DNA of 64,000 bases. Origin: Brucella gallinifaecis (GTDB lineage: Bacteria; Pseudomonadota; Alphaproteobacteria; Rhizobiales; Rhizobiaceae). Numbering within the stretch: the first letter of the stretch is position 1; each line of letters starts with the position of its first letter. Positions 1 through 53,713 of the stretch are shown here, piece after piece. The notes under the pieces were generated by a model. That model was not told the origin of the DNA. It made no database searches and saw only the letters and a list, made by a program, of their open reading frames with translations. A program made the position numbers and the translations under genes. Where the stretch lies: the NCBI RefSeq assembly GCF_006476605.1, contig NZ_ML636801.1, positions 1 through 64,000 of the forward strand, read 5' to 3'.

Positions 1-1731
<1,731 letters not shown>

Positions 1732-27726: not shown

Positions 27727-27942
27727 ATGCAGAGCATAGATTGGCGTACTCCGGCGGCCTATAAACGCATTAAAGACCTTCCGCCCGCCGGTTTCGCTTG
27801 GGAATATCTTCGTCGCAACGAAGACTATCGCCGTGACGTCGAGAGACTCACGCAGAGGAGAGAACCCGCGGGAGAAGAGGTTAACGCCTTTGCTTCCCGC
27901 TGGGGGGTGCGATTTCGCACACGACCCCGACGCGCAGCCTGA
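27727..27942 (+). CDS. fseA: DUF6499 protein, 5' part of FseA-like frameshift pair
   Basis: A 71-residue ORF (MQSIDWRTPAAYKRIKDLPPAGFAWEYLRRNEDYRRDVERL...) of the DUF6499 'transcriptional regulator' type, matching Msi172 of ICEMlSymR7A. There, Msi172 and Msi171 are fused by a +1 ribosomal frameshift to make FseA, the activator of the excisionase gene rdfS. Here the stop is at 27942, and the DUF2285 frame, +1 relative to this one, is open from 27833. GGGAGG precedes ATG 27727. The unshifted product alone lacks the second domain. Homology to FseA is by domain order and context. Confidence 0.85.
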   Translation: MQSIDWRTPAAYKRIKDLPPAGFAWEYLRRNEDYRRDVERLTQRREPAGEEVNAFASRWGVRFRTRPRRAA

Positions 27943-28522
27943 CGGCGCACCGCCTTTCTGGTCGCCGCATTTCAATCCGCAGGCCATTATTCTGTCTCCG
28001 GTCGAGCAGAACGATCCGGATGACGGGCGGCTTGTCGCTCTCGCACATCTCGATGGCCTGATCCTGCGCCGCGCGCCGGATGGCTGGCACGCAATCTGGC
28101 GTGTCGGTGGGATGGAGCATCAATTCTGGCTGCAACAGGGCGCGATAGATGCGGCAGCTTTCTATGCTGCTATCCTGCCCATGGACGAGTTCATGGAATT
28201 ACGCGCCCATGCGGCCCGCCGACTCTGGCGGTGCCTGACAGGCCGTTCTCCGGGACCGGATATTCGCGCCATGCCAGCGCAGCTTCGGCAATGGCACCTT
28301 CTGTCGCTACGGGCGCTGGACGCACGGCTGCACGGCGAAAGCTATCGCGCCGTTGCCGAAGTTCTACTCGGCTTCTGTGGCAACAAGGAAGATTTCGAGA
28401 CTGATCCGCGCAAGAATAAGGCTCGTCGTCTGGTTGCCCACGGTATCAGGATGATGCGCGGGGGCTATCGGCTGCTTTTGCACTATCCGGTCAAGCCGAT
28501 TCCACGATCAAAAGGCAAATGA
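27833..28522 (+). CDS. fseA: DUF2285 protein, 3' part of FseA-like frameshift pair
   Basis: The frame is open from 27833, but the family match begins near 27908: CDFAHDP...PPFWSPHFNPQAIILSPV, then a C-terminal DUF2285 helix-turn-helix region (QLRQWHLLSLRALDARLHGESYRAVAEVLLG...RLVAHGIRMMRGGYRLLLHYP). It corresponds to Msi171 of ICEMlSymR7A. No ATG with a ribosome site starts this frame before the domain, so it is probably made only by frameshift from 27727. It ends 8 bases from the convergent QseM-like gene. Confidence 0.82.
   Translation: MTSRDSRRGENPREKRLTPLLPAGGCDFAHDPDAQPDGAPPFWSPHFNPQAIILSPVEQNDPDDGRLVALAHLDGLILRRAPDGWHAIWRVGGMEHQFWLQQGAIDAAAFYAAILPMDEFMELRAHAARRLWRCLTGRSPGPDIRAMPAQLRQWHLLSLRALDARLHGESYRAVAEVLLGFCGNKEDFETDPRKNKARRLVAHGIRMMRGGYRLLLHYPVKPIPRSKGK
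27902..27910 (+). other. Candidate +1 ribosomal frameshift site (GGG-G run)
   Basis: Six G in a row (27902-27907) follow a TGG context. Zero-frame codons are TGG GGG GTG CGA; a P-site glycine tRNA on GGG (27904-27906) can move one base to GGG (27905-27907) with full pairing and continue TGC GAT TTC. The fused reading RWG-CDFAHDP joins the two domains without gap, giving a 264-residue protein. Confidence 0.7.
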
Positions 28523-28529
28523 GGCAATC

Positions 28530-28820
28530 TCACCGATTCCTGTTTGCCGCAGTCTGTTCCAGCATTTGCCTGTAACCTTCCCGTGACAGCCATTGAGCGC
28601 GTTCCAGATGGCTCTGCCAGCATCGCCGGGTTCGCATCTCATCTGATGCCGGATCGCGGTGCAGAACAATTCGCGCCACTTCCTTCCAGTCGGCTTCCTC
28701 GGACTTGGCGTCCAGAATACGCAAATAGGTTACAAAGTGCTGCTCGTCATAGGCGGTGATGACATCACCGGACGGCGCCAGATCATCCACATCGGGATCA
28801 AGTTCAACGGGTGCTTTCAC
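28530..28820 (-). CDS. Small DUF2285 protein, QseM-like antiactivator
   Basis: A 96-residue protein: an acidic lead, then TAYDEQHFVTYLRILDAKSEEADWKEVARIVLHRDP...RRCWQSHLERAQWLSREGYRQML, the C-terminal DUF2285 motif on its own. In ICEMlSymR7A, QseM is such a single-domain protein; it binds FseA and TraR and blocks excision and quorum-sensing activation. It sits tail-to-tail with the FseA-like gene. No qseC, traR or traI homologue is seen nearby. QseM function is inferred from family and place. Confidence 0.75.
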   Translation of the reverse strand: MKAPVELDPDVDDLAPSGDVITAYDEQHFVTYLRILDAKSEEADWKEVARIVLHRDPASDEMRTRRCWQSHLERAQWLSREGYRQMLEQTAANRNR

Positions 28821-28899
28821 GGTTATTCCCCTTCTTTCAGAAGAGTTTCTGCGGTTCGCCCCCGCAATAAAACTCTCTGACTCCTGGTGATCGGGGAGT

Positions 28900-29032
28900 T
28901 AGTAACCGTGACTAGACGGCCCCATGGCCTTTAGCTGGAAAGCCTGTTGCATACGCCACAGGCTCCCCGACCATAGGGTCAAGGAGTATGGTGCCGTCAC
29001 GGCCGACACCAACCGCTAGTCAGGGGTTACTA
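28900..29032. ncRNA. Structured intergenic element between qseM-like gene and rdfS
   Basis: An imperfect long inverted repeat, TAGTAACC-g-TGACTAG (28900-28915) against CTAGTCA-gg-GGTTACTA (29016-29032), closes a 133-base element. Inside: ACGGC (28916-28920) with GCCGT (28993-28997), GCCTGT (28942-28947) with ACAGGC (28958-28963), and GACC (28969-28972) with GGTC (28977-28980). A further hairpin ACTCC/GGAGT is at 28880-28899. No ORF overlaps. It could be a non-coding RNA, a leader of either flanking gene, or a protein-binding DNA site; strand unknown. Confidence 0.45.
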
Positions 29033-29290
29033 CGCCCCCGGAGCAGTGCGTCTGCCCCATCTGTATTCATAGCCGAACTGCGGGCGGATGTCTTGGGCGA
29101 ATCCGCATCGGTCTCCTTGAGTCGCTGAAATCTCACGTCTTTTCGCACTGACACAGCCCCCTTCAGGGGTGCCGTCTGCGTATAGGCGCAAATGCGGCAC
29201 GCTACACGTCGCCGATCACTTCCCATGGTTCGCCATAGCGCGCCGCCGTCTCCGGCAGCCGCATCAACCTGACGAACCGGAGGTGATCTC
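29033..29290 (+). promoter_or_regulatory. Upstream region of rdfS-like gene
   Basis: No gene. It contains CCCC-cttca-GGGGTGCCGTCTGCGTATA (from about 29157), one of several C/G palindromes before operons, 130 bases upstream of rdfS. GGAGG (29279-29283) is the ribosome site. In ICEMlSymR7A the FseA activator works at the rdfS promoter, so this is the region to look for its site. Confidence 0.35.
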
Positions 29291-29563
29291 ATGATCGAGC
29301 GCCGCAACACGGAAATGCCACCGCGCATGCTGCGCACTCAGGAAGCGGCGCGTTTCCTTGGTATTTCTCTTCGCACACTGGAAAAACACCGGACCTACGG
29401 GACCGGCCCGACCTATCGCAAAATCGGTGGGCGCGTCCTCTATACCGTCGATGATCTCCAGTCCTGGGCCGACATCGGCGCGCGAAAGTCCACCAGTGAC
29501 AAGGACGCTGGCACGGTTTTCCCGGCGCGTCCCCTGACGCCTGAAGAGCGGAGCAAGCTCTGA
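29291..29563 (+). CDS. rdfS: RdfS-like excisionase (AlpA/MerR-type HTH)
   Basis: A 90-residue protein with a winged helix-turn-helix of the Xis/AlpA/BldC type: MLRTQEAARFLGISLRTLEKHRTYGTGPTYRKIGGRVLYTVDDLQSWADI. It occupies the place of rdfS in ICEMlSym-family elements, downstream of fseA, and directly precedes repA with no gap. RdfS directs the integrase to excision. GGAGG is 8 bases before the ATG. The partner integrase is unclear, since the only recombinase visible is of the serine type while RdfS of R7A works with a tyrosine integrase. Confidence 0.75.
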   Translation: MIERRNTEMPPRMLRTQEAARFLGISLRTLEKHRTYGTGPTYRKIGGRVLYTVDDLQSWADIGARKSTSDKDAGTVFPARPLTPEERSKL

Positions 29564-30655
29564 ATGCGGCGCGTCGATCACCATGACGCCCTGCGGCGAG
29601 AAGGGGGCAGCGAGCGCAGCCACCTCGATCCATTCGTGGTTGCAACCGGCGATGCCAGTCCGCGCGACCAGCGCGATCTGATGGAGCGGCCATTCTTCTC
29701 GCTGGCGAAGACGACGCGCACGAAACCGATCCTCTACAAGAGCGCCGATGTCGAGGTGCAGGTATTCGGAATGCCTGAACACGGCATGGCGACGATCTGG
29801 GATGCTGATGTGCTGATCTGGGCTGCGAGCCAGATCGTTGCCGCCGAAAACAACGGCATCAAGACATCCCGTTTCTTCCGTTTTACGCCCTATCATCTGC
29901 TGCGCGCCATCGGACGCGACACCGGAAACAGGCAATATCTGCTGCTGAAGGCAGCGCTTGCCCGCCTGCAATCCACGGTCGTCGCCACGACGATCCGCAA
30001 CGGCAAGCATTGGCGCCGCCGCCAGTTCTCCTGGATCAACGAATGGGAAGAGATGACCACCCGCGACGGTCGCGTCGAGGGCATGGAGTTTGTCCTGCCT
30101 GAATGGTTTTACAACAGCGTTCTCGACCGGTCGCTGGTCCTCACCATCGACCCGGACTATTTTCGGCTGACCGGCGGTATCGAGCGCTGGCTCTACCGTG
30201 TCGCCCGTAAACACGCCGGACATCAGCCGCATGGCTGGCTGTTCGAGGTTGCGCACCTTTACCAGAAATCCGGCAGCATGGCCCGGCCATCGGACTTTGC
30301 ACTGGACCTGCGCCGCATCGCGGCCCGCCAGCCGCTGCCCGGCTACCAGCTCAAGATCCTGCGCGAAGATCGCCGCGAACTGCTGCGAATCCGCCCTGAA
30401 AATCTATCCACAGTGCCTGTGGATAACATTGTGGATGCCGTCGGTACATCAGGCGCACGGGGTATCGGTACATCAGGCGCAGGACTATCGGCACATCAGG
30501 CGCACGAACCCCAGTTAAGTCTCTGGAACGAAAAGCAGAATGCGACTGCTAACTTAGAATCTAACATAGATTCTAAGTTTTCTTCTTTGACGCGCGCGCA
30601 TGGGAGGCGCGGTGCCAGTGCCACTTCCCGCCGACCTGGGCGGGGTACGCCATGA
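29564..30655 (+). CDS. repA: Replication initiator RepA-like protein
   Basis: A 363-residue plasmid-type initiator (RepA_N/'replication initiator protein A' family): FFSLAKTTRTKPILYKSADVEVQVFG, ADVLIWAASQIV, FFRFTPYHLLRAIGRDTG..YLLLKAALARL, GIERWLYRVARKHAG. It would start theta or rolling replication of the excised circle. It starts right after the rdfS stop. The first about 40 residues are unlike the family, so a later start (LMERPFF, about residue 39) is possible. Its last 80 codons carry DnaA boxes, iterons and a palindrome, which explains the odd peptide repeats (GTSGA twice). It overlaps parA by 4 bases. Confidence 0.85.
   Translation: MRRVDHHDALRREGGSERSHLDPFVVATGDASPRDQRDLMERPFFSLAKTTRTKPILYKSADVEVQVFGMPEHGMATIWDADVLIWAASQIVAAENNGIKTSRFFRFTPYHLLRAIGRDTGNRQYLLLKAALARLQSTVVATTIRNGKHWRRRQFSWINEWEEMTTRDGRVEGMEFVLPEWFYNSVLDRSLVLTIDPDYFRLTGGIERWLYRVARKHAGHQPHGWLFEVAHLYQKSGSMARPSDFALDLRRIAARQPLPGYQLKILREDRRELLRIRPENLSTVPVDNIVDAVGTSGARGIGTSGAGLSAHQAHEPQLSLWNEKQNATANLESNIDSKFSSLTRAHGRRGASATSRRPGRGTP
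30405..30504. other. Candidate replication origin inside repA
   Basis: Two DnaA boxes face each other: TATCCACAG (30405-30413), spacer TGC, CTGTGGATA (30417-30425); TGTGGATAA (30418-30426) is a perfect consensus box and a third weaker TGTGGATG follows (30430-30437). Then come three direct repeats TCGG(T/C)ACATCAGGCGCA at 30441-30457, 30465-30481 and 30488-30504, spaced 24 and 23 bases, as expected of iterons bound by RepA on one DNA face. All lie in the coding frame. Confidence 0.7.
30551..30579. repeat. AT-rich perfect palindrome before parA (parS- or operator-like)
   Basis: AACTTAGAATCT (30551-30562), spacer AACAT, AGATTCTAAGTT (30568-30579): 12-base arms, perfect, followed by TTCTTCTTTG. 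It is within the repA 3' end, 73 bases before parA, and much richer in A/T than its surroundings. A partition site, parA operator, AT-rich unwinding element or intragenic terminator would all fit. Confidence 0.6.
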
Positions 30656-31305
30656 TCGTCGCGTTCCTCAATCAGAAGGGCGGCGTGGGCAAGACCACGC
30701 TGGCGCTGCATCTCGCCGGAGCCTGGGCTGCGCAAGGACAGCGGGTCATCCTGATCGATGCCGACCCGCAAGGCTCCGCGCTCGACTGGTCGGAGCGGCG
30801 CGGCCATGAAGGGCTGCCAAGGCTGTTCAGTGTCATCGGTCTGGCCCGCGATACGCTGCACAGGGAAGCGCCGGAACTGGCACGTGACGCCGATCATGTC
30901 GTCATTGATGGTCCGCCCCGTGTCGCGGGCCTCATGCGCTCAGCGCTGCTTGCAGCCGATCTGGTGCTGATCCCTGTGCAGCCATCCCCCTTTGACGGTT
31001 GGGCCTCAGACGAGATGCTGGCGCTTCTGAACGAAGCCCGCATCTTTCGCCCGGAGCTTGCTGCCCGCTTTCTGCTGAACCGATGCGGTGCGCGCACCGT
31101 CATCGCCCGCGAAACGGTCGAGGCACTGGCAGACCATGATCCGCCATTGCTGGCCACAACGGTCGGCCAGCGTGTCGTCTTCGCCGAAGCCGCACAGACC
31201 GGACGGCTGGTCTCCGAGACCGATGGCGGAGAACGCGCCGCACGGGAAGTCACAGCGCTGGTGGCTGAGATCGGTGGCCTCGTTATCGGGAGGATCGTGC
31301 CATGA
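30652..31305 (+). CDS. parA: ParA-family partition ATPase
   Basis: A 217-residue small ParA/MinD-type ATPase with the deviant Walker A KGGVGKTT near residue 9, LIDADPQGSALDW (Walker A'-type motif) and VVIDGPPRVAG (Walker B). It lacks the N-terminal HTH of P1-type ParA, so it belongs to the short type that pairs with small RHH partners such as the next gene. Together they would segregate the excised replicating circle. It overlaps repA and the next gene by 4 bases each (ATGA). Confidence 0.92.
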   Translation: MIVAFLNQKGGVGKTTLALHLAGAWAAQGQRVILIDADPQGSALDWSERRGHEGLPRLFSVIGLARDTLHREAPELARDADHVVIDGPPRVAGLMRSALLAADLVLIPVQPSPFDGWASDEMLALLNEARIFRPELAARFLLNRCGARTVIARETVEALADHDPPLLATTVGQRVVFAEAAQTGRLVSETDGGERAAREVTALVAEIGGLVIGRIVP

Positions 31306-31556
31306 CACGTCCGCACGTCAAATCCGGCTTCGCGTCGCGTCCAGGCAATCCCGATAGCTGGGTCAGTGGCGCCGAAGCGCCGGCAACCGGCAAGACGGCG
31401 ACGGAGGCGTTCACCGCCCGTCTGACCATCGACATCACGCCCGAACTGCGCGGGCGCATCAAGGTTGCCGCTTTCCGGCGCGGCGTCACCGTCGCCGTGA
31501 TGCTGCGCGAGCTGCTGGTCCGCGAGTTTCCACCCACCGAAGGAGATCAGCTATGA
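31302..31556 (+). CDS. Small ribbon-helix-helix protein (ParG/ParB-like)
   Basis: An 84-residue protein: a basic, disordered N-terminus, then FTARLTIDITPELRGRIKVAAFRRGVTVAVMLRELLVREF, which reads as a ribbon-helix-helix (beta strand RLTIDI, two helices). Placed directly after parA with ATGA overlap, it is the likely DNA-binding partner for centromere binding and autoregulation. The palindrome at 30551 is one candidate site. It is also coupled to the DUF2840 gene by a 4-base overlap. Confidence 0.72.
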   Translation: MTRPHVKSGFASRPGNPDSWVSGAEAPATGKTATEAFTARLTIDITPELRGRIKVAAFRRGVTVAVMLRELLVREFPPTEGDQL

Positions 31557-32071
31557 CCGGCAAAACCGTGCGCGCTGCGCATGAACATCCGCAGCCGAAC
31601 GGGCCAGCACCGTTCACCACAATGGTCGAACTGACCTTCCAGAAGAAGAAGGTCGAGCGCTGGATACGCTTCGGCCGCAAGAGCTTTGAGCAGATCATCG
31701 ACCGCCGCCGCAGTCTGATCGGTTTTGCGCCCGAAAGCATCTTCGCCTTCGTCCGCTGGGCCTCCAACGATTATGGCACCATCGTTTCGCGGCTCGACAT
31801 CCTGCGCGCTACCGGGCGTGGCGAACCGTACCAGACCGTGCCCTTCGTTCGTCCTGGCGGCGAGATCCTGCTGCGCATCGACGGCTGGCGACAAGTCCAG
31901 CGGGTGTTGGCCCTGATTGATGCCGTGGACGCGCTTGGCGTCGATCCGGCGGATGTTGCGCCGGATCATTGGCGGCACGTCCACAACCGTTTGAGCGCCG
32001 GTCAGGAACCCAATCCCTACACCCCGGAGCGCCATGCCGCATGGGTCAGCCGCCGGAGGATCGCACTATGA
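31553..32071 (+). CDS. DUF2840 protein
   Basis: A 172-residue DUF2840 protein (VELTFQKKKVERWIRFGRKSFEQIIDRRRSLIGFAPESIFAFVRWASNDYGTIVSRLDILRA...). The family is found almost only in the parA-traF interval of proteobacterial ICEs; function unknown. It is basic and without membrane segments, and overlaps genes on both sides by 4 bases, so it belongs to the parA-traF operon. Confidence 0.88.
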   Translation: MTGKTVRAAHEHPQPNGPAPFTTMVELTFQKKKVERWIRFGRKSFEQIIDRRRSLIGFAPESIFAFVRWASNDYGTIVSRLDILRATGRGEPYQTVPFVRPGGEILLRIDGWRQVQRVLALIDAVDALGVDPADVAPDHWRHVHNRLSAGQEPNPYTPERHAAWVSRRRIAL

Positions 32072-32613
32072 GCCGCCGTCACATCCTTGCCGTGTCGATG
32101 CTGGCCGTCGGCACGCTTGTCGTCACGGCGGTTGCCGATCTGCCAACCCGGCTGATCTGGAATGCGACTGCCAGCGCGCCCATCGGCTTCTACACAGTTG
32201 CTCCCGCTGATGCGCTCGAAGTGCCCGAACTGGTCGCCATCATGCCGTCCGAACCGCTGGAACGGTTCATGGTCGAGCGCGGCTATATCGGACGCGGCGT
32301 GCCGCTGCTGAAGCGCGTCCTCGGCCTGCCGGGCCAGCGCGTCTGCCGCAACGGTGCGACCATTACAGTCGATCATGTCGAGATGGGGGATGCGCTGGAG
32401 CGCGACCGCATGGGCCGCGATCTGCCGGTCTGGCAGGGCTGCCGTATCATCGGTGACGGTGAACTCTTCCTCATGAATTGGGAAGTCCGGGACAGCCTCG
32501 ACGGCCGTTACTTCGGACCTGTTCCCGTCAGTTCCGTCATCGGCCGGGCGCTTCCGCTCTGGACCGATGGGGAAGGTGATGGCCGCTACGAATGGCGGGC
32601 GGCCACGCATTGA
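32068..32613 (+). CDS. traF: TraF-like conjugal S26 peptidase
   Basis: A 181-residue periplasmic-facing peptidase of family S26. An N-terminal signal anchor (residues about 5-23) is followed by the catalytic serine in NATASAPIGFY and the lysine in GVPLLKRVLGLPGQ. TraF of RP4 processes the TrbC pilin to the cyclic form, and trbC is present at 49492 in this window. ATG 32068 overlaps DUF2840 by 4 bases; GGAGG is 9-13 bases before it. Confidence 0.9.
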   Translation: MSRRHILAVSMLAVGTLVVTAVADLPTRLIWNATASAPIGFYTVAPADALEVPELVAIMPSEPLERFMVERGYIGRGVPLLKRVLGLPGQRVCRNGATITVDHVEMGDALERDRMGRDLPVWQGCRIIGDGELFLMNWEVRDSLDGRYFGPVPVSSVIGRALPLWTDGEGDGRYEWRAATH

Positions 32614-34012: not shown

Positions 34013-36085
34013 ATGAGCGCCGACGACGAGAACCGCTTTCGTCCCAGGCCAGGTCGGATCAAATCCGACGTGCCGAAGGCGAGCAAGGCGAAGAGCTTTC
34101 TGACGCAGGTGAAGAAGCTGGCGCGACAGCACAGCAACAGCACCGGCAGATCATCATCATTCGCATCCCGGACGTCCTCGTCGCCTGCATCTGGTTCGGC
34201 CGGAAATAGCGGGAATGCGTCGCGGGCTGGCAAAGGTCCGGGCGTCAAGCGGGGCCGTGGCGCGGCCTTTGTCCGCGCCCGAACCCTGTCGGGCGGGTGG
34301 CGTCACAGTGCGACTGGCGTGCGCCGCGTCGTCGTCAAAACCCGGTACGTCCAGGGCGCGGGGAAGAACGGCAAAGGGGCTGCCCATCTGCGCTACATCC
34401 AGCGCGACGGCACCTCGCGTGATGGCGAACGTGGCCAGCTCTATTCGGCGACCGACGATCGCGCTGATGGAGATGCCTTTCTTGATCGCGGCAAGGATGA
34501 TCGCCACCAGTTCCGCTTCATCGTTTCCCCCGAAGATGCCGCCGATCTTTCCGATCTCACCGAACACACCCGCGATCTGATGAGCCGCATCGAGGCCGAC
34601 CTTGGCACGAAACTCGATTGGGTGGCCGTCAATCACCACAATACCGGCCATCCTCATGTCCATATCATCATTCGGGGGAAGGACGATCTGGGCGAGAACC
34701 TGGTCATCAATGGCGACTATCTCGCCAATGGTATTCGTGAGCGGGCAAGCGAACTGACCACGCTGGAACTCGGCCCCGTGACCGAGATCGAGCAGAGCCG
34801 CAAGCTGTCTGTCGAAATCGATCAGGATCGCTTCACGCGCATCGACCGCGCCATGACCGAGGAGGCCGACGAACGGTTCCTCGATCTGCGCCATGAACAG
34901 TCAGATGCACACCGCCAGTTCAACCGCACACTTCGCCTGCGCCGTCTCGCCAAGCTGGAAAAGATGGGGCTGGCCTCGGAACATGCACCCGGCGTCTGGG
35001 AGCTTGGCGCGAAGATGGAACCGGCGCTGCGTGAACTCGGTGAACACGGCGACATCATCCGCAACATGCACAAGGCGCTGAAGGCCGATGGGCAGGAACG
35101 TGATCCAATGACCTTCCAGCTTCACGATGCAGCACCCGCAGCACCCATCACCGGCCGCGTCGTGGACAAATATCTCACCGACGAGATGGGCGAGAACCTG
35201 ACGCTTGTGGTGGACGGCATTGACGGGCGAACACACCATCTTCCTGGCATTGATCCGGCCCACGTCGAAGATGCCCGGATCGGCAGTATCGTGGAAGTCG
35301 GCCCCGCTGACACAGCACAACGTCCCTCTGATCGCACCATCGCTGCGATCTCGGAGAGCGGCATCTACCAGCCCAGCCGCCATCTCAAACAGGCGAAGTT
35401 CGAGGGACGTGTGCCGGGTGGTGATTACGAGGGCTATGTCGATGCCCATGTCCGGCGACTGGAGGCGCTGCGCCGCGCTGGCATTGCTGAACGGATCGAC
35501 GCTGACCAGTGGCGCATTCCCGATGACTTCGAGAGCCGCGCCACCGCCTATGATGCCGGTCGCAACCGGCAAGCCAGCATCCGCGTTGTCTCGACCTTCG
35601 ATCTGGAAAAGCAGATCGGCGCCGATGGTGCGACCTGGCTGGATCGGCGACTGGTTACGCCGGGCGCTTCGGACATTACCTCGGCAGGGTTCGGTCAGCA
35701 GGTGCGCGAGGCGATGGATCAGCGCCGCGAGCATCATGTCGCACAGGGCGATGCCACGCGGCAGCAGAATGGACGCATCCTCTATAGGCGTAATCTGCTC
35801 GCCAATCTGCGGGAACGGGAAGTGGCCCGCGTCGGTGCAGAAATGGCCGGGAGCAAAGGATTGCCATTCCGGGCGGCTGCCGATGGCGAAAATGTCAGCG
35901 GCAAGTTCACCGGGACCGCACACCTATCGAGCGGCAAGTTCGCCATTGTCGAAGAGAGCCATGAGTTCACCCTTGTCCCATGGCGACCTGTCATCGACCG
36001 CCAACTTGGCCGAGAGGTTGCCGGAATTGTGCAGGGCGGATCAGTGTCGTGGCAGCTTGGGCGGCACCGGGGCTTGGGATTGTAG
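34013..36085 (+). CDS. rlxS: VirD2-family relaxase (DUF3363, RlxS-like)
   Basis: A 690-residue relaxase. The N-terminal 90 residues are basic and low-complexity. The relaxase core follows: AAHLRYIQRDG (124-133), HQFRFIVSPEDA (165-176) and the metal-binding histidine motif HHNTGHPHVHIIIRG (208-222). The C-terminal two thirds match DUF3363, shared with TraI/VirD2-like relaxases of ICEMlSym. It nicks oriT, stays bound to the 5' end and is led to TraG. The catalytic tyrosine is not certain; RYIQRDG or the R/Y pair before it are candidates. The next ICE gene, traG, is 9.8 kb away because cargo intervenes. Confidence 0.93.
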   Translation: MSADDENRFRPRPGRIKSDVPKASKAKSFLTQVKKLARQHSNSTGRSSSFASRTSSSPASGSAGNSGNASRAGKGPGVKRGRGAAFVRARTLSGGWRHSATGVRRVVVKTRYVQGAGKNGKGAAHLRYIQRDGTSRDGERGQLYSATDDRADGDAFLDRGKDDRHQFRFIVSPEDAADLSDLTEHTRDLMSRIEADLGTKLDWVAVNHHNTGHPHVHIIIRGKDDLGENLVINGDYLANGIRERASELTTLELGPVTEIEQSRKLSVEIDQDRFTRIDRAMTEEADERFLDLRHEQSDAHRQFNRTLRLRRLAKLEKMGLASEHAPGVWELGAKMEPALRELGEHGDIIRNMHKALKADGQERDPMTFQLHDAAPAAPITGRVVDKYLTDEMGENLTLVVDGIDGRTHHLPGIDPAHVEDARIGSIVEVGPADTAQRPSDRTIAAISESGIYQPSRHLKQAKFEGRVPGGDYEGYVDAHVRRLEALRRAGIAERIDADQWRIPDDFESRATAYDAGRNRQASIRVVSTFDLEKQIGADGATWLDRRLVTPGASDITSAGFGQQVREAMDQRREHHVAQGDATRQQNGRILYRRNLLANLREREVARVGAEMAGSKGLPFRAAADGENVSGKFTGTAHLSSGKFAIVEESHEFTLVPWRPVIDRQLGREVAGIVQGGSVSWQLGRHRGLGL

Positions 36086-40256: not shown

Positions 40257-40387
40257 TGGCCATATCACTCGGCCGTTCCCTGTATATTGTCGAACTTCAT
40301 GGGAGCGATAAACGACGTTCACGCGATATGCCGATACGGCGTTTCACAGGTACGACTCGCCCCAGCCGAACGTTCCAGAAGTTAGCA

Positions 40388-40972: not shown

Positions 40973-40986
40973 TACAACCTCAAAAT

Positions 40987-41038: not shown

Positions 41039-41057
41039 ATATGCAGGAGCATGAGAT

Positions 41058-45761: not shown

Positions 45762-45903
45762 CGCACCCTGATGGTGCCGCTGCAGCCCATCCGATTCGCC
45801 GCCGATAGTATTCGGCAGCCCTACGGCCACACCTTTGCTGTTGCAACGCTCAAAATAGCACATTCTCTGATCGCCTCCGTCTCTTTTGCCGATTGGGGTC
45901 TGT

Positions 45904-47892
45904 ATGCGTGGAGGGCGAATACTCTGGGGCCAGATCATTGTGGTGCTCACCATCGTCGTGGTGATGGTCTGGACTGCAACGCAATGGGTGGCTTTCCGGC
46001 TCGGCTTCCAGCCCCAGCTCGGCGCCCCCTGGTTCGATATTTCCGGATGGCCATTTTATTATCCACCTGCCTTCTTCTGGTGGTGGTTTTCTTATGACGC
46101 CTATGCGCCCGGCATCTTTACCGAAGGTGCGTTCATCGCCACGTCCGGGGCGGTTCTTGCAATAGCCGCCGCCCTCTTCATGTCGATCATCCGGGCACGG
46201 GAAGCCCGCAATGTCGCCACCTACGGTTCGGCGCGATGGGCCGAGGATAAGGAAATCCATGCGGCCGGATTGCTTGGTCCTGATGGCGTCGTGTTGGGAC
46301 GGCACAGCAAGGACTATCTGCGTCATGACGGCCCAGAACATGTACTGTGCTTTGCACCAACCCGATCCGGCAAGGGCGTGGGCCTCGTCGTACCGACGCT
46401 GCTGACCTGGCCGGGGAGCTGCATTGTCCATGACATCAAAGGGGAGAATTGGAACCTGACCGCAGACTTCCGCTCCCGTCATGGCCGCGTCCTGCTGTTC
46501 GATCCGACCAATGTGCATTCCGCAGCCTATAATCCGCTTCTGGAAGTGCGGCAGGGTGAATGGGAAGTCCGTGACGTCCAGAACATCGCGGACATCCTAG
46601 TTGATCCCGAAGGTTCTCTCGACAAGCGCAATCATTGGGAAAAGACCTCGCACAGCCTGCTGGTCGGCGCGATCCTGCATGTTCTCTATGCCGAGAAGGA
46701 AAAGACACTGGCTGGTGTCGCAAATTTTCTGTCCGATCCGCGCCGTCCGGTCGAAGCGACATTACGTGCGATGATGGACACGCCGCATCTGGGCGAAGCC
46801 GGGGTGCATCCCGTCATTGCTTCTTCTGCGCGGGAATTGCTGAACAAATCCGAGAACGAGCGCTCCGGCGTGCTTTCGACCGCCATGTCTTTTCTCGGCC
46901 TTTACCGAGATCCAGTTGTGGCCCGCGTGACGGCGCGGTGCGATTGGCGCATCGCCGATCTGGTCGGTGCGAAAGAACCGGTCAGCCTCTATCTCGTAGT
47001 GCCACCCTCTGACATCAACCGCACCAAGCCGCTGATCCGCCTCATCCTCAATCAGGTCGGGCGCCGGCTGACCGAGGAACTGGAAACCTCCGGCAAGCGG
47101 CATCGGCTGCTATTGATGCTCGATGAGTTTCCGGCATTGGGCAGGCTCGACTTCTTTGAATCGGCGCTGGCCTTTATGGCCGGCTACGGGCTGAAAGCGT
47201 TCCTGATCGCCCAATCGCTCAATCAGATCGAGCGCGCCTATGGTCAGAACAATGCCATTCTCGACAACTGCCATGTACGCGTTGCCTTCGCGGCCAATGA
47301 TGAGCGTACTGCCAAGCGGATCAGCGATGCGCTCGGCACGGCAACCGAAATGCGCGATTCCACTAACTATGCCGGCCATCGCCTCGCGCCATGGCTGGGG
47401 CATCTCATGGTGTCGCGGCAGGAAACGGCGCGGCCGCTGCTGACACCCGGGGAGATCATGCAGCTTCCGCCCACCGACGAGATCGTCATGGTGGCGGGGG
47501 TGCTGCCGATCCGCGCAGCCAAGGCACGCTACTATGCTGATGCGCGGTTTCAGGAGCGGGTGATGTCACCGCCCGATCTGCACAAACAGCCGGTGAAAAT
47601 CGCCACATCGGCACAGGACGACTGGACGAGCCGCATTGTTGCGGCTGCGACCGGCAATGTCTCCGCCTCAGATACATCCGATGACGATCCGGCCAATGCT
47701 GGTATTCGGCGTGAACCGGAACTGCCTGAGCATGAGGAAATCATCCCGCCACCTCCGCCACCATCGCAGGAGTTCGATTTCCTCGATGATGAGCCGGACG
47801 TCGATGCCGCCAAAGCCCGAGCCATGCGCCAGCGTATGCGCATGGTGGCGCGGCAGGCGTCACTTGACCCAAATGACGGCATCGAGCTTTGA
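45904..47892 (+). CDS. traG: Conjugal coupling protein TraG
   Basis: A 662-residue VirD4/TraG-type coupling ATPase. Two membrane segments precede residue 95; Walker A APTRSGKGVG (near 147) and Walker B LLLMLDEFPALGR (near 405), then AQSLNQIERAYGQNN. The tail is acidic and proline-rich. TraG takes the relaxase-DNA complex to the Trb channel. ATG 45904 is preferred to TTG 45886. It opens the transfer operon; relaxase and traG are usually adjacent, but here 9.8 kb of cargo lies between. Confidence 0.95.
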   Translation: MRGGRILWGQIIVVLTIVVVMVWTATQWVAFRLGFQPQLGAPWFDISGWPFYYPPAFFWWWFSYDAYAPGIFTEGAFIATSGAVLAIAAALFMSIIRAREARNVATYGSARWAEDKEIHAAGLLGPDGVVLGRHSKDYLRHDGPEHVLCFAPTRSGKGVGLVVPTLLTWPGSCIVHDIKGENWNLTADFRSRHGRVLLFDPTNVHSAAYNPLLEVRQGEWEVRDVQNIADILVDPEGSLDKRNHWEKTSHSLLVGAILHVLYAEKEKTLAGVANFLSDPRRPVEATLRAMMDTPHLGEAGVHPVIASSARELLNKSENERSGVLSTAMSFLGLYRDPVVARVTARCDWRIADLVGAKEPVSLYLVVPPSDINRTKPLIRLILNQVGRRLTEELETSGKRHRLLLMLDEFPALGRLDFFESALAFMAGYGLKAFLIAQSLNQIERAYGQNNAILDNCHVRVAFAANDERTAKRISDALGTATEMRDSTNYAGHRLAPWLGHLMVSRQETARPLLTPGEIMQLPPTDEIVMVAGVLPIRAAKARYYADARFQERVMSPPDLHKQPVKIATSAQDDWTSRIVAAATGNVSASDTSDDDPANAGIRREPELPEHEEIIPPPPPPSQEFDFLDDEPDVDAAKARAMRQRMRMVARQASLDPNDGIEL

Positions 47893-47906
47893 GAGCGGAG
47901 ACAGGC

Positions 47907-48362
47907 ATGACGACGCGCACCCGCATGAATGTCTACTTCGATCCCGCTCTGCTGAAACAGGTGGAAGCGCTGGCATTGCGCCGAAATGTCTCGAAATCCG
48001 CAGTGATCGAGGCCGCGGTCGCATCCTTCATGTCAGGCGATACGACTGAGCGACTGGAAGCCGCCATGTCGCGCCGCCTGGACAAGCTTGGCCGTCAGTT
48101 CGACATACTGGACGAGGATATCGCCGTGCTGGGCGAAACCCTTTCGCTATTCGTACAATTCTGGCTGACCCTCACGCCGCCGCTGCCCGACAGCGCAAAA
48201 CAATCTGCGCGAATCAAGGGAAACGAGCGTTTCGAGGGATTCATGCAGGCGCTTGGTAAGCGCCTCGCCACCGGTGACAGGTTCCTCAAAGAAATATCGC
48301 ACGACATGGCTGCGCTACACGACACCCCGCCGGAGGGTGTGTCCGAAGGCGATGGGGATTAG
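47907..48362 (+). CDS. CopG-family ribbon-helix-helix protein
   Basis: A 151-residue protein. Residues 1-45 are a RHH domain (TRTRMNVYFDPALLKQVEALALRRNVSKSAVIEAAVASFM); the rest is helical with one amphipathic or membrane-touching part (LGETLSLFVQFWLTLTPPLP). The position between traG and trbB is conserved in this ICE family. It probably binds DNA in the oriT or traG region as an accessory or regulator. ATG 47907 (AGCGGAGAC upstream) is chosen over an ATG 18 bases before, within traG. Confidence 0.8.
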   Translation: MTTRTRMNVYFDPALLKQVEALALRRNVSKSAVIEAAVASFMSGDTTERLEAAMSRRLDKLGRQFDILDEDIAVLGETLSLFVQFWLTLTPPLPDSAKQSARIKGNERFEGFMQALGKRLATGDRFLKEISHDMAALHDTPPEGVSEGDGD

Positions 48363-48462
48363 CCTCAGGATTTGAACTCGTCCTATTCACCGCCAGGCCT
48401 CGCCGATGGCCGCACGCGCGTAAACATCTGTTGAAATAGCCCAAAATCAGGTTCTTTTAATC

Positions 48463-48487
48463 GACCCCGATCCGGGGTCCGTCTTTT
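48463..48487 (+). terminator. Hairpin before trbB (terminator or operator)
   Basis: GACCCCG-atc-CGGGGTC (48463-48479), then CGTCTTTTG. A second hairpin GCCCCGT-catga-ACGGGGC (48492-48510) directly precedes the trbB start and covers an alternative ATG at 48500. Together they could end the traG-copG message or control trbB translation. Confidence 0.5.
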
Positions 48488-48514
48488 GCGCGCCCCGTCA
48501 TGAACGGGGCCGCC

Positions 48515-49495
48515 ATGACTGCATCACATCAAAAACCGGAAACGATTGCCCGTGGCGCGCGGATGCTGCGCACCGCGCTTGGGGCATCCATCGGTCGACT
48601 TCTGGAAGACCCCGGTGTGGTCGAGGTGATGCTGAACCCGGACGGCCGTATCTGGGTGGATCGGCTGTCCGAAGGGCTGGTCGATACGGGGGAGAGGCTG
48701 TCCGCCGCCGATGGCGAACGGATCGTGCGTCTCGTCGCCCATCATGTCGGGGCAGAGGTTCATGCCCGCGCTCCCCGCGTTTCAGCAGAGCTTCCCGAAA
48801 CCGGCGAGCGGTTCGAGGGCCTTTTGCCGCCCGTTGTCGCGTCACCCGCCTTCGCCATCCGCAAGCCCGCCGTCGCGGTGTTCACGCTCGACGACTATGT
48901 GAACGCCGGGATCATGACCAGCCTTCAGGCGGAGGTGCTGCGCCTGAACGTCGCCACACGCGCCAACATCCTTGTCGCAGGCGGCACCTCCACCGGCAAA
49001 ACCACACTGACCAACGCTTTGCTGGCCCAGGTGGCGAAGACCTCGGATCGCGTGGTCATCATCGAAGACACGCGCGAACTGCAATGCGCCGCGCCCAATC
49101 TCGTGGCAATGCGCACGAAGGATGGCGTTGCCACGCTTTCCGATCTGGTGCGCTCTTCGCTGCGCCTACGCCCTGATCGCATCCCGGTCGGGGAGGTCCG
49201 CGGGTCCGAAGCTCTCGATCTGCTCAAAGCTTGGGGGACGGGACATCCGGGCGGCATCGGCACTATCCACGCCGGTTCCGGCATCGGTGCGCTGCGCCGC
49301 CTCGAACAGCTCATCCAGGAAGCCGTGATCACGGTTCCACGCGCCCTGATCGCCGAGACGATCGACCTTGTTGCTGTCCTTGCCGGGCGTGGATCGTCGC
49401 GTCGGCTGGTCGAACTGGCCCGCGTCGACGGGCTGGGGCCGGACGGCGACTACGCCATTACCCCCGCAACCACCTCAAAAGGAGATCCTTCATGA
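48515..49495 (+). CDS. trbB: Conjugal transfer ATPase TrbB
   Basis: A 326-residue secretion ATPase of the VirB11/TrbB type: Walker [11 protein letters not shown], Asp box [12 protein letters not shown], Walker B-like [15 protein letters not shown] and the His-box [14 protein letters not shown]. It forms the hexameric motor at the base of the channel. ATG 48515 ([10 protein letters not shown]...) is preferred since this N-terminus matches the family; ATG 48500 is buried in a hairpin. It overlaps trbC by 4 bases. Confidence 0.95.
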
Positions 49496-49824
49496 TCCGC
49501 ACGATTTCGCGCGGCTGCCACGTCATGGCAACCGCCGCCGCCACCGTTTCCGTCAGCCTGATGCTGGCGCCTGCAGCACACGCCTCCGGTTCCTCCATGC
49601 CGTGGGAGGCGCCGCTTCAGAGTATCCTCCAGTCGATCGAAGGGCCGGTCGCCAAGATCATCGCAGTGATCGTCATTATCTCCACCGGCCTTGCGCTGGC
49701 CTTCGGTGATACGGGTGGTGGCTTCCGCAAGCTGATTCAGATCGTGTTCGGTCTGTCTATCGCGTTCGCGGCCAGTTCGTTCTTCCTGTCGTTCTTCTCG
49801 TTTGGCGGCGGGGCGCTCATCTGA
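49492..49824 (+). CDS. trbC: TrbC pilin precursor
   Basis: A 110-residue VirB2/TrbC pilin: a long signal peptide ending near AHA-S (residue 32), followed by two hydrophobic helices (IIAVIVIISTGLALAFG and LIQIVFGLSIAFAASSFFLSFFSF). Family members are processed by TraF (gene at 32068) and, in RP4, cyclised. AAGGAG is 7-12 bases before the ATG, which overlaps the trbB stop. Confidence 0.93.
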   Translation: MIRTISRGCHVMATAAATVSVSLMLAPAAHASGSSMPWEAPLQSILQSIEGPVAKIIAVIVIISTGLALAFGDTGGGFRKLIQIVFGLSIAFAASSFFLSFFSFGGGALI

Positions 49825-50105
49825 TGGCGGGCGGCCTCGAACAGCTCGATGCGGTGCCGGGGTTTTCGATCCCGGTCCATCGGGCGCTGACCGAGCATAT
49901 CCTGCTCGGAGGCGCGCCACGCTCCATCGCTATTGTGAACGGCACGCTGGCCGGGGCCGTCGGCCTCGGCCTCCGTCTCTGGCTGGTTGGTATCGCCATC
50001 TGGGCCATCGGACACTTCCTCGCGGTATGGGCAGCCAAACGCGATCCGCTCTTTGTCGAGGTCGGGCGCAGGCATCTGCGCATCCCCGGTCATCTGTCGG
50101 TGTGA
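49824..50105 (+). CDS. trbD: TrbD, mating-pair formation
   Basis: A 93-residue VirB3-like inner-membrane protein (VPGFSIPVHRALTEHILLGGAPRSIAIVNGTLAGAVGLGLRLWLVGIAIWAIGHFLAVWAAKRDP). One long hydrophobic hairpin lies around residues 38-70. It overlaps trbC by one base and is followed 10 bases later by trbE, with which VirB3-type proteins interact. Confidence 0.93.
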   Translation: MAGGLEQLDAVPGFSIPVHRALTEHILLGGAPRSIAIVNGTLAGAVGLGLRLWLVGIAIWAIGHFLAVWAAKRDPLFVEVGRRHLRIPGHLSV

Positions 50106-50115
50106 GGGCGCGAGC

Positions 50116-52623
50116 ATGATGAACCTCATCGAATATCGCCGCACCTCCGCTCGGCTTTCCGACTATCTGCCATGGGCAGCCCTGGTCGGTCCCGGCATTG
50201 TGCTGAACAAGGATGGCAGCTTCCAGAGGACGGCGAAGTTTCGCGGGCCGGATCTTGATTCTGCTGTCGCCGTCGAACTGGTCGCTGTCGCCGGTCGTAT
50301 CAACAACGCCGTGCGGCGTCTTGGTTCCGGCTGGTCGATCTTCGTCGAGGCGCAGCGTTCCGAGGCCGCGACCTATCCCGACAGCCGTTTTCCAGATGCC
50401 GCCTCCGCACTGGTCGATGCCGAGCGCAAGGCCGGGTTCGAGGAAGTGGGCACGCATTTCGTGTCCGGCTATTTCCTGACCCTCCTTTGGCTTCCGCCTG
50501 CCGAAGACGCCGCGCGCGCCGAGACCTGGCTTTATGAAGGCCGTGAGCAATCCGGCGTCAATCCTCATGAACTGCTGCGCGGCTTCAGCGACCGCACCGA
50601 CCGCGTGCTGGCGCTGCTCGACGGCTTTATGCCGGAATGCCGCTGGCTCGATGACGCTGGCACGCTGACATACCTCCATTCGGCGATTTCCACGAACCGT
50701 CATCGCGTCCGCGTGCCCGAAGTGCCGATGCACCTCGATGCGCTGCTGGCCGATCAGCCACTGACCGGCGGACTGGAGCCGTGCCTTGGTGATGCGCATC
50801 TGCGCATCCTGACCTTCATAGGCTTTCCGACCGCGACCACGCCTGGCCTGCTCGACGAAATGAACCGGCTCGCGTTCCCATATCGCTGGTCCACCCGCGC
50901 CATCCTGATGGACAAGACGGATGCAACGAAGCTGCTGACCAAAATCCGCCGCCAGTGGTTTGCCAAGCGTAAGAGCATCGCCGCGATCCTCAAGGAGGTG
51001 ATGACCAACGAACAATCGGCGCTGGTGGACACCGATGCGTCTAACAAGGCGCTCGATGCCGACATGGCCTTGCAGGAGCTGGGCGCTGACGTCGCTGGCA
51101 TGGCCTATGTCACAGCAACCGTCACCGTCTGGGACATTGATCCGCGGATCGCCGACGAGAAGCTGCGTCTGGTCGAGAAGATCATTCAAGGCCGTGACTT
51201 CACGGCCATGCCCGAAACCGTCAATTCCGTCGATGCCTGGCTCGGCTCGCTCCCCGGACATGCCTACGCCAATGTCCGGCAGCCGCCAATCTCGACCCTA
51301 AACCTTGCCCACATGATCCCGCTATCGGCCGTGTGGGCGGGGCCGGAACGGAACGAACACCTCGGAGCGCCCCCCTTGCTGTATGGCAAGACCGAAGGTT
51401 CGACGCCGTTCCGGCTTTCCCTTCATGTCGGCGACGTGGGCCATACCCTCGTCGTCGGCCCGACCGGCGCAGGCAAATCCGTGCTGCTGGCACTGATGGC
51501 GCTGCAATTCCGCCGCTATGAACGCAGTCAGATATTCGCCTTCGACTTCGGGGGATCGATCCGGGCATCCGCGCTCGCCATGGGTGGCGACTGGCATGAC
51601 CTCGGCGGCGGGTTGACCGAGGGATCGGAGGTTTCCGTTTCCCTGCAACCGCTCGCGCAAATTGATGACGCTTATGAGCGATCATGGGCCGCTGACTGGA
51701 TTGCCGCAATTCTGATGCGTGAAGGCGTGACCATCACGCCTGAGGTGAAGGAGCATATCTGGACGGCGCTGACCTCGCTGGCATCTGCACCCGTCAGCGA
51801 GCGCACCATCACCGGTCTCGCGGTGCTCTTGCAATCCAATGATCTCAAGCAGGCGCTGCGACCCTATTGCATCGGTGGTGCCTATGGCCGGTTGCTCGAT
51901 GCGGAGACCGAACAACTCGGCTCAGCGGATGTGCAGGCGTTCGAGATCGAGGGACTGGTCGGAACTGGCGCGGCCCCGGCCGTGCTCGCCTACCTGTTCC
52001 ATCGCATCGGCGACCGGCTCGACGGGCGGCCGACTTTGCTCATCATCGACGAAGGTTGGCTGGCGCTGGATGACGAAGGGTTCGCCAACCAGCTGCGCGA
52101 ATGGCTGAAGACGCTCCGCAAGAAAAACGCCAGCGTCATCTTCGCCACGCAGTCGCTCTCGGACATCGACGGCAGCAACATCGCGCCTGCCATCATCGAA
52201 AGCTGCCCGACACGGCTGCTGCTGCCGAATGAACGCGCGATCGAGCCGCAGATCACTGCGATCTATCGGCGGTTCGGCCTCAATGACCGGCAGATCGAGA
52301 TCCTCGCACGGGCAACGCCCAAGCGCGACTATTACTGCCAGTCGCGCCGCGGCAATCGCCTGTTCGAGCTGGGCCTGTCCGAAGTCGGCCTCGCGCTCTG
52401 CGCCGCATCATCCAAAACCGATCAGACCCGCATTGCCGCTCTCGTCGCCGAGCATGGGCAGGAAGGCTTCCTCGCCGCCTGGCTGCGCGAGCGCGGCGTC
52501 GAATGGGCGGCCGAGCTGATCCCCGATCTCACCAATCTTGCCGAACGGCCCGAGCCCGCTCAGCCGGTCAGGCCAGATCCAATCCAACCCGATGACATCC
52601 AAGAAGAGGAGACCTTGCCATGA
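50116..52623 (+). CDS. trbE: TrbE ATPase (VirB4-like)
   Basis: An 835-residue VirB4/CagE-family ATPase: YLPWAALVGPGIVLNKDGSF at the N-terminus, Walker A VVGPTGAGKSVLLA near residue 455, Walker B LLIIDEGWLALDDEGF near 645, and FATQSLSDIDGS. It powers pilus assembly and substrate movement. Tandem ATG at 50116/50119. The C-terminal tail is P/D/E-rich and overlaps trbJ by 4 bases. Confidence 0.95.
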   Translation: MMNLIEYRRTSARLSDYLPWAALVGPGIVLNKDGSFQRTAKFRGPDLDSAVAVELVAVAGRINNAVRRLGSGWSIFVEAQRSEAATYPDSRFPDAASALVDAERKAGFEEVGTHFVSGYFLTLLWLPPAEDAARAETWLYEGREQSGVNPHELLRGFSDRTDRVLALLDGFMPECRWLDDAGTLTYLHSAISTNRHRVRVPEVPMHLDALLADQPLTGGLEPCLGDAHLRILTFIGFPTATTPGLLDEMNRLAFPYRWSTRAILMDKTDATKLLTKIRRQWFAKRKSIAAILKEVMTNEQSALVDTDASNKALDADMALQELGADVAGMAYVTATVTVWDIDPRIADEKLRLVEKIIQGRDFTAMPETVNSVDAWLGSLPGHAYANVRQPPISTLNLAHMIPLSAVWAGPERNEHLGAPPLLYGKTEGSTPFRLSLHVGDVGHTLVVGPTGAGKSVLLALMALQFRRYERSQIFAFDFGGSIRASALAMGGDWHDLGGGLTEGSEVSVSLQPLAQIDDAYERSWAADWIAAILMREGVTITPEVKEHIWTALTSLASAPVSERTITGLAVLLQSNDLKQALRPYCIGGAYGRLLDAETEQLGSADVQAFEIEGLVGTGAAPAVLAYLFHRIGDRLDGRPTLLIIDEGWLALDDEGFANQLREWLKTLRKKNASVIFATQSLSDIDGSNIAPAIIESCPTRLLLPNERAIEPQITAIYRRFGLNDRQIEILARATPKRDYYCQSRRGNRLFELGLSEVGLALCAASSKTDQTRIAALVAEHGQEGFLAAWLRERGVEWAAELIPDLTNLAERPEPAQPVRPDPIQPDDIQEEETLP

Positions 52624-53402
52624 TCCGTATACCTATTTCGCGTTTTGCCAGTGCATCCATGCTGGCGTTGACCCTCGCTATGCCGGTCGCACTATCACCA
52701 ATCCTGACAAGTCCGGCTCACGCCTTTGGCTTTGGCCGCATCGTCTATGATCCGACCAACTATGCGCAGAACCTTCTCACCGCCGCGCGCACGCTGGAGC
52801 AGATCAACCACCAGATCACTTCGCTTCAGAACGAAGCGCAGATGCTCATCAATCAGGCGAAGAACCTCGCCAGCCTGCCATATTCCTCGCTCCAGACCTT
52901 GCAGCAAAATGTGCAGCGCACACAGCAGCTCCTGAGCCAGGCCCAAAACATCGCCTTCGACGTCCAGAACGTCGATCAGATGTTCCAGCAGAAATACGGC
53001 AATGTCTCGCTGTCGGCCACCGACACCCAGCTTGTCGAAGATGCCCGTTCGCGCTGGCAGAACACAGTTGGCGGTTTGCAGGACGCCATGCGCGTGCAGG
53101 CCGGTGTGGTCGGCAATATCGATACCAACCGCGCCGAGATGTCGGCATTGGTCGGCCAGAGCCAGAACGCCACCGGCGCCTTGCAGGCTACGCAGGCGAG
53201 CAATCAGCTTCTCGCCCTCCAGTCGCAGCAGCTTTCCGACCTGATCGCGCTGATGTCGGCCAATGGCCGGTCCGAGGCGCTGATCGAGGCCGAGCGGGCC
53301 ACCGCCGCCGAACAGGGCCGCGTCCAGCGTGAACGCTTCCTGACGCCGGGATCGGGCTACCAGCCCGGCAATGCCCGGATGTTCGGCAAAGGCAACAACT
53401 GA
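52620..53402 (+). CDS. trbJ: TrbJ, VirB5-like
   Basis: A 260-residue exported protein with signal peptide (ending near AHA-F, residue 38), then RIVYDPTNYAQNLLTAARTLEQINHQITSLQNEAQMLINQAKNLASL, a long coiled-coil region typical of TrbJ. It is a minor pilus component thought to act at the tip and in contact with recipients. It overlaps trbE by 4 bases. Confidence 0.93.
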   Translation: MIRIPISRFASASMLALTLAMPVALSPILTSPAHAFGFGRIVYDPTNYAQNLLTAARTLEQINHQITSLQNEAQMLINQAKNLASLPYSSLQTLQQNVQRTQQLLSQAQNIAFDVQNVDQMFQQKYGNVSLSATDTQLVEDARSRWQNTVGGLQDAMRVQAGVVGNIDTNRAEMSALVGQSQNATGALQATQASNQLLALQSQQLSDLIALMSANGRSEALIEAERATAAEQGRVQRERFLTPGSGYQPGNARMFGKGNN

Positions 53403-53422
53403 CCGGACAGGAGGGGCGCGAC

Positions 53423-53710
53423 ATGGACGGCAAGATGCTGGCACGGCTGGGCGCGATCATATTCGTGGCTATCGCCATCACCGCCACGGTGATCGAAATG
53501 ACCCGTGAGGATGAACCTGCGCAGAACCGTCCGGCTCCTTCGCTTCAGCCCTCTGCCGATCCGCTGCGCCAGAGCCTGCGCGATTGTCAGCGTCTTGGCG
53601 AGGCCGCCGCGAGCGATCCCGATTGCCTCGCCACCTGGGCGGAGAACCGCGACCGCTTTCTCGGCCGGACGCCGGTGCCCACCGCCCCGCATCAGAACGG
53701 GGGAGAGTGA
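53423..53710 (+). CDS. trbK: TrbK-like entry-exclusion protein
   Basis: A 95-residue protein with one N-terminal membrane segment (LARLGAIIFVAIAITATVIEMT) and a short periplasmic part with two cysteines (LRDCQRLGEAAASDPDCLATWAENRDRFLG), the pattern of the alternative TrbK family found between trbJ and trbL in alphaproteobacteria. It is expected to block redundant transfer between cells carrying the same element. AGGAGG lies 12 bases before the ATG. Confidence 0.85.
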   Translation: MDGKMLARLGAIIFVAIAITATVIEMTREDEPAQNRPAPSLQPSADPLRQSLRDCQRLGEAAASDPDCLATWAENRDRFLGRTPVPTAPHQNGGE

Positions 53711-53713
53711 ACC

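Follow-up and report, generated by a model that had tools for sequence, protein, structure and literature searches.

The gene analysed here raises the question of how a single protein could be produced from two overlapping reading frames. It lies in the window, a 64,000-nt stretch of Brucella gallinifaecis contig NZ_ML636801.1. Frame 0 begins with the ATG at 27727 and ends with the TGA at 27940–27942, while the +1 frame stops at 28520–28522 (Table 1). In Pfam searches frame 1 matched PF20109 (3.5e-24) and frame 2 matched PF10074 (6.9e-29). The preliminary description of this DNA had reported DUF6499 and DUF2285 frames overlapping at +1, a six-G run (27902–27907) and a fusion of 264 residues, and all of these were found as described. 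The arrangement resembles FseA (msi172-msi171) of ICEMlSymR7A from Mesorhizobium japonicum, in which DUF6499 and DUF2285 also lie in +1 frames, and the FseA alignment-A1 profile matched RovC (6xz5, 5.8e-22). The middle domain (28007–28243) matched PDB chains Ika8/Ika4 (6g6o, 1.7e-7; 6g6q, 0.021), which we take to be designed beta-propellers.

Table 1. Positions in the window of the fseA-like gene, its proposed recoding site and the neighbouring transfer genes.
Feature	Position	Strand	Evidence
fseA frame 1: DUF6499 / PF20109, 71 aa, AWEYLRRN motif	27727..27942	+	
GGGGGGTG, Shine-Dalgarno-like stretch holding the six-G run; putative stimulator	27902..27909	+	
CGA codon, occupying the E site when the P site holds UUU; putative role	27910..27912	+	
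TTT C, proposed +1 shift site: UUU would re-pair to UUC, one base skipped	27913..27916	+	
fseA frame 2: middle domain and DUF2285 / PF10074 RovC_DNA-bd, stop included	27917..28522	+	
Putative QseM-like antiactivator, DUF2285 only, convergent with fseA	28530..28820	-	Pfam, PDB match
Conserved structured RNA, 160 nt, leader of the QseM-like gene	28886..29045	-	covariation
Candidate FseA box: inverted repeat GTGCCG-N20-CGGCAC, 90 nt 5' of the RdfS-like ORF	29169..29200		
RdfS-like gene (HTH_17), first of the transfer operon	29291..29563	+	
RepA-like RPA, ParA, ribbon-helix-helix-like ORF (below Pfam cut-off), ORF 31553-32071, TraF-type peptidase	29564..32613	+	
RlxS-like relaxase, DUF3363; NF041267 667.7 bits (cut-off 850)	34013..36085	+	
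T4SS coupling protein (45886), VirB11-type ATPase (48500), TrbE-like ATPase (49987), TrbI (56774)	45886..57907	+	

Relatives were collected with iterated profiles run on the six-frame ORFs of 198 sources (the window and 197 loci, some of them near copies). A scan of named genomes supplied 36 loci, to which a second fseA copy from the same genome as the window was added. Places of the DUF6499 family were drawn from 398, 385 and 397 genomes at the level of phylum, class and order, and the 160 stretches retrieved are a part of all places listed. All 36 loci of the named-genome scan were split with a +1 offset. The 201 DUF6499 hits comprised 163 genes split at +1 (a count that takes in the window gene and the second copy in its genome), 31 fused genes, a single gene split at +2 (L157) and six hits without a partner. 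The offset is thus +1 in 163 of the 164 two-frame genes; it is not random, and the observation lies beyond chance. This constancy contradicts a simple pseudogene and supports the earlier proposal that an FseA-like protein is made by +1 frameshifting. Because some loci are near copies of one another, the statistics below rest on 92 representatives from 80% clustering, treated as independent.

Relatives at 95–98% protein identity come from contigs bearing the titles Chelativorans, Aliihoeflea, Agrobacterium, Paracoccus, Neorhizobium, Pseudogemmobacter and others; on Ketogulonicigenium plasmids a relative at 97.3% has its halves annotated as separate genes. In the C frame, synonymous differences outnumbered other differences against 11 of 11 near relatives, and in the N frame the raw counts were mixed. 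Summed over L009, L011, L016 and L017, pN/pS was 0.41 for the N frame and 0.18 for the C frame, values given without a significance test. FseA-like genes with a conserved +1 site throughout alpha-, beta- and gammaproteobacteria are described in Jowsey 2023 (PMC10359603). The UUU site and the spread of split FseA across proteobacteria are both already published, so the window gene adds one more member to a well described family. The view that split FseA occurs outside the symbiosis islands holds; the accompanying notion of low-level, stochastic control goes beyond the sequence evidence.

In frame 0 the window site reads CGC TGG GGG GTG CGA TTT CGC ACA, with TGG at 27901 and TTT at 27913, so that Trp stands four codons 5' of UUU. 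The pattern usual in the split genes is TGG GGN NTN NNN TTT Y. TGG-N9-TTT was found in 161 of 163; L230 has its TTT one codon further and L169 has TGT. In 162 of the 163, TTT stands in frame 0 with C or T as the next base, and this is the fair figure because the site finder used for the 92 representatives requires TTT. Among these representatives the following base was C in 86 and T in 6, and TTT, with a usage of 26% in the same genes, is over-used at the site. Passages of Atkins 2016 (PMC5009743) identify the shift site of the ICE gene as UUU and the fourth codon before it as Trp, as in the window, name UUU_Ynn as +1-prone, and describe the glycine codon as conserved in its first two bases only. 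Our site counts agree with that work and rest on many more loci than these passages showed. A copy of the FseA site on plasmid pMLb of M. japonicum MAFF 303099 reads TGG GGT TTG CAG TTT CGC. The slip is most likely better placed at UUU-C (27913–27916), two codons past the G run, and this correction of the slip site is already in the literature (Atkins 2016).

The TGGGGNNTNCGATTTC pattern matched once in the window and in none of 100 shuffles. In the whole 3.7-Mb genome there were three matches: the window fseA, a second fseA on contig C4, and a place on contig C1 (14976–14991) where the DUF6499 profile gave no hit. The second copy (L041, 9091–10404) is diverged and carries the site TGG GGG TTG CGA TTT CCC. 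It too is split at +1 and has a convergent QseM-like gene and the leader RNA described below, so the host has two such modules.

Codon choice around the site is strongly skewed. GGG was present at 72 of 91 representative sites (13% in the same genes) and TTG at 46 of 79 (12%), and together they spell GGGGGUUG; CGA made up 49 of the 59 Arg codons at its position (10%). The sites paired with the anti-Shine-Dalgarno sequence more strongly than synonymous random sequences (mean −8.86 versus −6.07 kcal/mol, nominal P 7e-33), and the 15-nt duplex that holds GGGGGGUG in the window reached −13.0 kcal/mol. UGGGGG was noted as RBS-like, with stalling suggested, in Jowsey 2023 (PMC10359603). From these statistics we infer that the six-G run more plausibly serves as a Shine-Dalgarno-like stimulator and CGA as a weak E-site pair. 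An internal Shine-Dalgarno-like, G-rich stretch 5' of a slippery codon that slips by +1 is also the arrangement of prfB, the gene for release factor 2. In prfB the stretch lies 3 nt from the slip codon and in the window about 5–6 nt from UUU, so its effect may differ. Unlike in prfB, the 0-frame codon after the slip is CGC and not a stop, and fseA controls a mobile element rather than RF2. The signal would thus be a composite of the Shine-Dalgarno-like stretch, CGA and UUU-C, each part of which is measurable separately.

Two other candidate elements were rejected. No downstream mRNA structure was found that could act as a stimulator, since folding of the 60 nt that follow the site is weaker than in other parts of the gene (−16.4 versus −18.8 kcal/mol). 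A conserved frame-0 tail after the shift was not supported either: its median length was 27.5 codons against 41 elsewhere in the same frame, with a range of 2 to 545, which points at best to a weak tendency to early stops. In the window, 8 residues remain in frame 0 after the shift codon.

The preliminary description had tRNA-Gly slip from GGG to the overlapping GGG within the six-G run, with RWGCDFAH as the junction. The product would have 264 residues for a slip at either GGG or TTT, and the alternatives WGCDFAHDP and WGVRFAHDP are two residues apart. TGG GGG GTG in the window does allow perfect re-pairing and the resulting frame is open, the preference for GGG suits such a slip, and the naturally fused gene L320 (TGG GGT TGC GAT TTC CCG) encodes WGCDF, so this junction is tolerated. 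However, GGG occupies only 116 of 161 split sites, the remaining 45 carrying GGT, GGC, GGA or CAC, and at four sites (L170, L228, L254, L255) a stop closes the +1 frame after TGG and before TTT, where a glycine slip could not yield a fusion. The near-invariant TTT and the CGA bias would also go unexplained. In the fused genes the residue after WG is L, V or I in 33 of 36 cases (24 + 12 genes), the same as in the 0 frame of the split genes, and C in two. L313, alone among the fused WG-motif genes listed, has TTT then C at the site, a point against the UUU reading. Comparison across relatives thus upheld the +1 arrangement and showed the GGG codon to be variable. We consider a glycine slip improbable as the main event and expect the junction RWGVRF-AHDP instead; the six-G window could also slip at GGG as a second, minor site.

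The G run bears on two further explanations. Transcriptional slippage there would give mixed mRNAs that restore the frame, and the window does offer a six-base homopolymer; across 161 sites, however, the usual run is five Gs (98 sites), 44 sites have four only and 18 have six (6 of the 92 representatives), the TTT and CGA biases are unaccounted for, and the portions of PMC10359603 and PMC5009743 concerned treat the shift as ribosomal. The chance that slippage of this kind is responsible seems slight indeed. The run also resembles a ribosome-binding site, and a possible +1-frame start (ATG, GTG or TTG) lies near the site in 60 of 92 representatives, as would be expected if the frames were separate proteins with the second started internally. 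Yet a Shine-Dalgarno-like stretch lies 4–16 nt before such a start in only 9 of 92, and the commonest ATG position is shared by only 5 representatives, which makes separate proteins very improbable. Decay of the window gene is hinted at by L157 with its +2 split, L169 without TTT and the six unpartnered DUF6499 hits, but the offset shared by 163 of 164 genes, pN/pS well below 1 in both frames, and a further copy of identical layout elsewhere in this genome leave a pseudogene as remote as transcriptional slippage.

We therefore return to the UUU-C slip. On the observed frames, conservation, codon bias, gene order and homologies, we put at roughly 0.85 the probability that this gene encodes an FseA-type excision activator of an alphaproteobacterial conjugative element, made by a +1 slip at UUU-C. 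Translation would start at 27727 and proceed in frame 0 through WGVRF. The internal GGGGGGUG would pair with the ribosome, and a weakly read CGA would sit in the E site while the P site contains tRNA-Phe paired with UUU. A minority of ribosomes may then slip from UUU to UUC, skip C27916 and continue with GCA CAC GAC, giving the 264-residue product ...RWGVRF-AHDPDAQ..., and most would terminate at 27940–27942 and release DUF6499 alone. The fused FseA would bind the inverted repeat 5' of the RdfS-like gene and turn on excision and transfer; the convergent QseM-like protein would restrain FseA by binding its DUF6499 part. The slip, its efficiency and the roles of the Shine-Dalgarno-like stretch and CGA are deduced from the sequence features above, whereas DNA binding and antiactivation are proposed by homology with ICEMlSymR7A. 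On this scheme, the junction peptide named earlier would most likely miss the product, and altering the G run alone would probe the stimulator, not the slip.

Single-frame DUF6499-DUF2285 (RovC-like) proteins have the same domains with similar spacing around WG...DP, but differ in occupying one frame; they make up 31 of the 201 hits. One-piece matches came from Pseudomonas, Delftia, Klebsiella, Hydrogenophaga and Polaromonas plasmids. A tree was built from 112 C-frame sequences (65% clusters; L178, L189 and L196, with long or gappy rows, were omitted), and on it the split/fused label changes at least 14 times, at least 7 of them on well supported branches. With the tree unrooted, changes from split to fused and from fused to split are both possible. 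The fused genes L320, L321 and L326 stand beside split relatives on starred branches; L320 is nested in a split clade, and the loss of one base would explain its codon pattern. Fused genes lie inside split clades at several places and most of the genes examined are still split, from which we argue that the frameshift is kept by selection. For rihF1b/rihF1a of Azorhizobium caulinodans ORS571, a passage of PMC9601964 denies frameshifting on the ground that both halves possess start and end codons of their own. The halves of split FseA genes look the same in this respect, so this claim may deserve a check.

One possible reason for the split state, that the unshifted DUF6499 acts as a decoy for QseM, was rejected as a general link. 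In the first count a QseM-like gene lay within 2 kb of 132 of 163 split genes and 2 of 31 fused genes, and two more split loci (L212, L242) also had one. We then added 14 loci chosen for long open frames: the 12 fused ones all had a QseM-like gene and the two split ones had none, so the contrast vanished with more fused relatives. For independent pairs on the tree, the median p for the link was 0.5 before and 1 after the addition. The initial contrast was probably mostly a clade effect.

The surroundings follow much of the R7A plan, with an RdfS-like gene heading a traF/relaxase operon and a QseM-like antiactivator. The putative antiactivator matched PF10074 (3.4e-7) and the solved QseM structure 7uqt (5e-17, over 7uqt residues 11–87). 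The RdfS-like gene is on the same strand as, and downstream of, fseA in all 140 loci that have both, and in most of these the distance between the two profile matches is 157–269 nt or, in the layout of the window, 807–848 nt. In the T4SS region the domain scan covered ORFs outside 52620–56774. Unlike in R7A, the QseM-like gene of the window is adjacent to fseA and convergent with it, and the candidate FseA box has another spacer. A related repeat is present in all 17 aligned sequences, the window included; its spacer is 20 nt in the window, 18 in 12 of the 17 and 16 in L268, whereas the part of PMC10359603 on rdfS promoters gives 15–16. A general inverted-repeat search of 28820–29290 reported none, though the covarying RNA and the shorter repeat of the candidate box lie there.

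According to PMC5882170, TraR activates the traI2-msi172-msi171 operon of R7A. By contrast, a profile search of the window's contig found no LuxR-type autoinducer-binding domain; in this genome PF03472 matched on contigs C5 and C11 only. PF00765 was silent in this genome and likewise in all 14 controls, and is hence uninformative. Gene order together with the result for the LuxR-type domain suggests that the R7A plan is present, apparently without a linked TraR.

Several other features of the window were recorded. At the contig start a large serine recombinase ORF (34–1731, minus strand) overlaps a tRNA-Met gene, and 1–1731 is perhaps an attachment-site edge. Positions 5116–12403 (minus strand) hold a pair of UvrD-type helicase and OLD-type nuclease genes adjoining McrBC genes; in its domain composition the pair is Gabija-like. 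An ArdC-type anti-restriction protein is encoded at 12516 and an MmeI-type enzyme at 58523. The cargo at 37047–45758 comprises a FUSC-type transporter, an HlyD-type fusion protein, TetR, an FAD-binding protein, DUF3313, an enoyl-CoA hydratase and LysR.

The leader of the QseM-like gene contains a conserved structured RNA. Of 25 leaders aligned at first, three were removed: L258 (unalignable), L236 (masked bases) and L005 (near copy). Another seven convergent loci had already been excluded, and the covariance model later found nothing in them. The remaining 22 leaders support 65 pairs, with 99.3% of 1423 cells able to pair and double changes at 14 pairs (76 cells). Four of five measures were reached by none of 500 shuffles, and the fifth, further pair types, was reached by 257. 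With the partner slid, 29–48% of cells paired, a comparison that favours the proposed structure because it was derived from the same alignment. On the qseM-sense strand there were 149 G-U cells and 3 A-C cells, which assigns the RNA to the same strand as the QseM-like gene. An origin of transfer is the less likely explanation of the structured region. A passage of PMC11963761 places the R7A rdfS operon upstream of oriT and rlxS, and with this position and the G-U excess an RNA fits better than oriT.

The covariance model scored above 70 bits on the qseM-sense strand in 35 of 99 and 13 of 100 sources (counts that include the model-building loci); on the opposite strand it never exceeded 27 bits. 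Nearly all matches were in loci with the layout of the window. In the second layout, in which the QseM-like gene is upstream of fseA (83 split genes), L303 (122.9 bits) and L305 (114 bits) have the QseM-like gene on the same strand as fseA and the RNA just 5' of it; most other loci of this layout gave no match to the model. L224 had a 33.5-bit match only, 1.7 kb from its QseM-like gene. By blastn the leader RNA was found in 200 of 72,556 plasmid records, 144 of them with at least 80% of it. Six plasmid loci were inspected, and in all five that were annotated the next gene downstream was on the same strand; these genes encode an HTH_3 regulator, a methyltransferase and three proteins that match no Pfam family.

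Among Rfam families, sRNA-Xcc1 (RF02221) scored 35.1 bits in the window, below its gathering score of 53; it scored 37.5 in one of five relatives and 32.6 and 34.6 in two of six plasmid loci, with none in the rest at E 0.05. Chen 2011 describes sRNA-Xcc1 in its title as 'plasmid-transferred', which makes a link of the leader RNA with a known family possible. The sRNA-Xcc1 helix GGUCGGGGAG-CUCCCCGAUC competes with a helix of the leader-RNA consensus. Enforcing it in a single-sequence fold costs about 12 kcal/mol (−105.2 versus −117.3), so the two-state idea is only a suggestion.

We tentatively propose, as a speculation that we consider rather unlikely in full, an excision switch that this family of elements would run without a linked TraR. 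In addition to the ribosomal frameshift, two helices of an RNA switch on the sense strand of the qseM leader would compete for one CUCCCC stretch, tune the amount of the QseM-like protein and thereby set the excising fraction of cells, and the same module may have been reused on many alphaproteobacterial conjugative plasmids before other genes, some of them regulators. If the leader RNA acts on the antiactivator, it adds an RNA layer to the control of conjugation, and it is the part of this locus most worth following.
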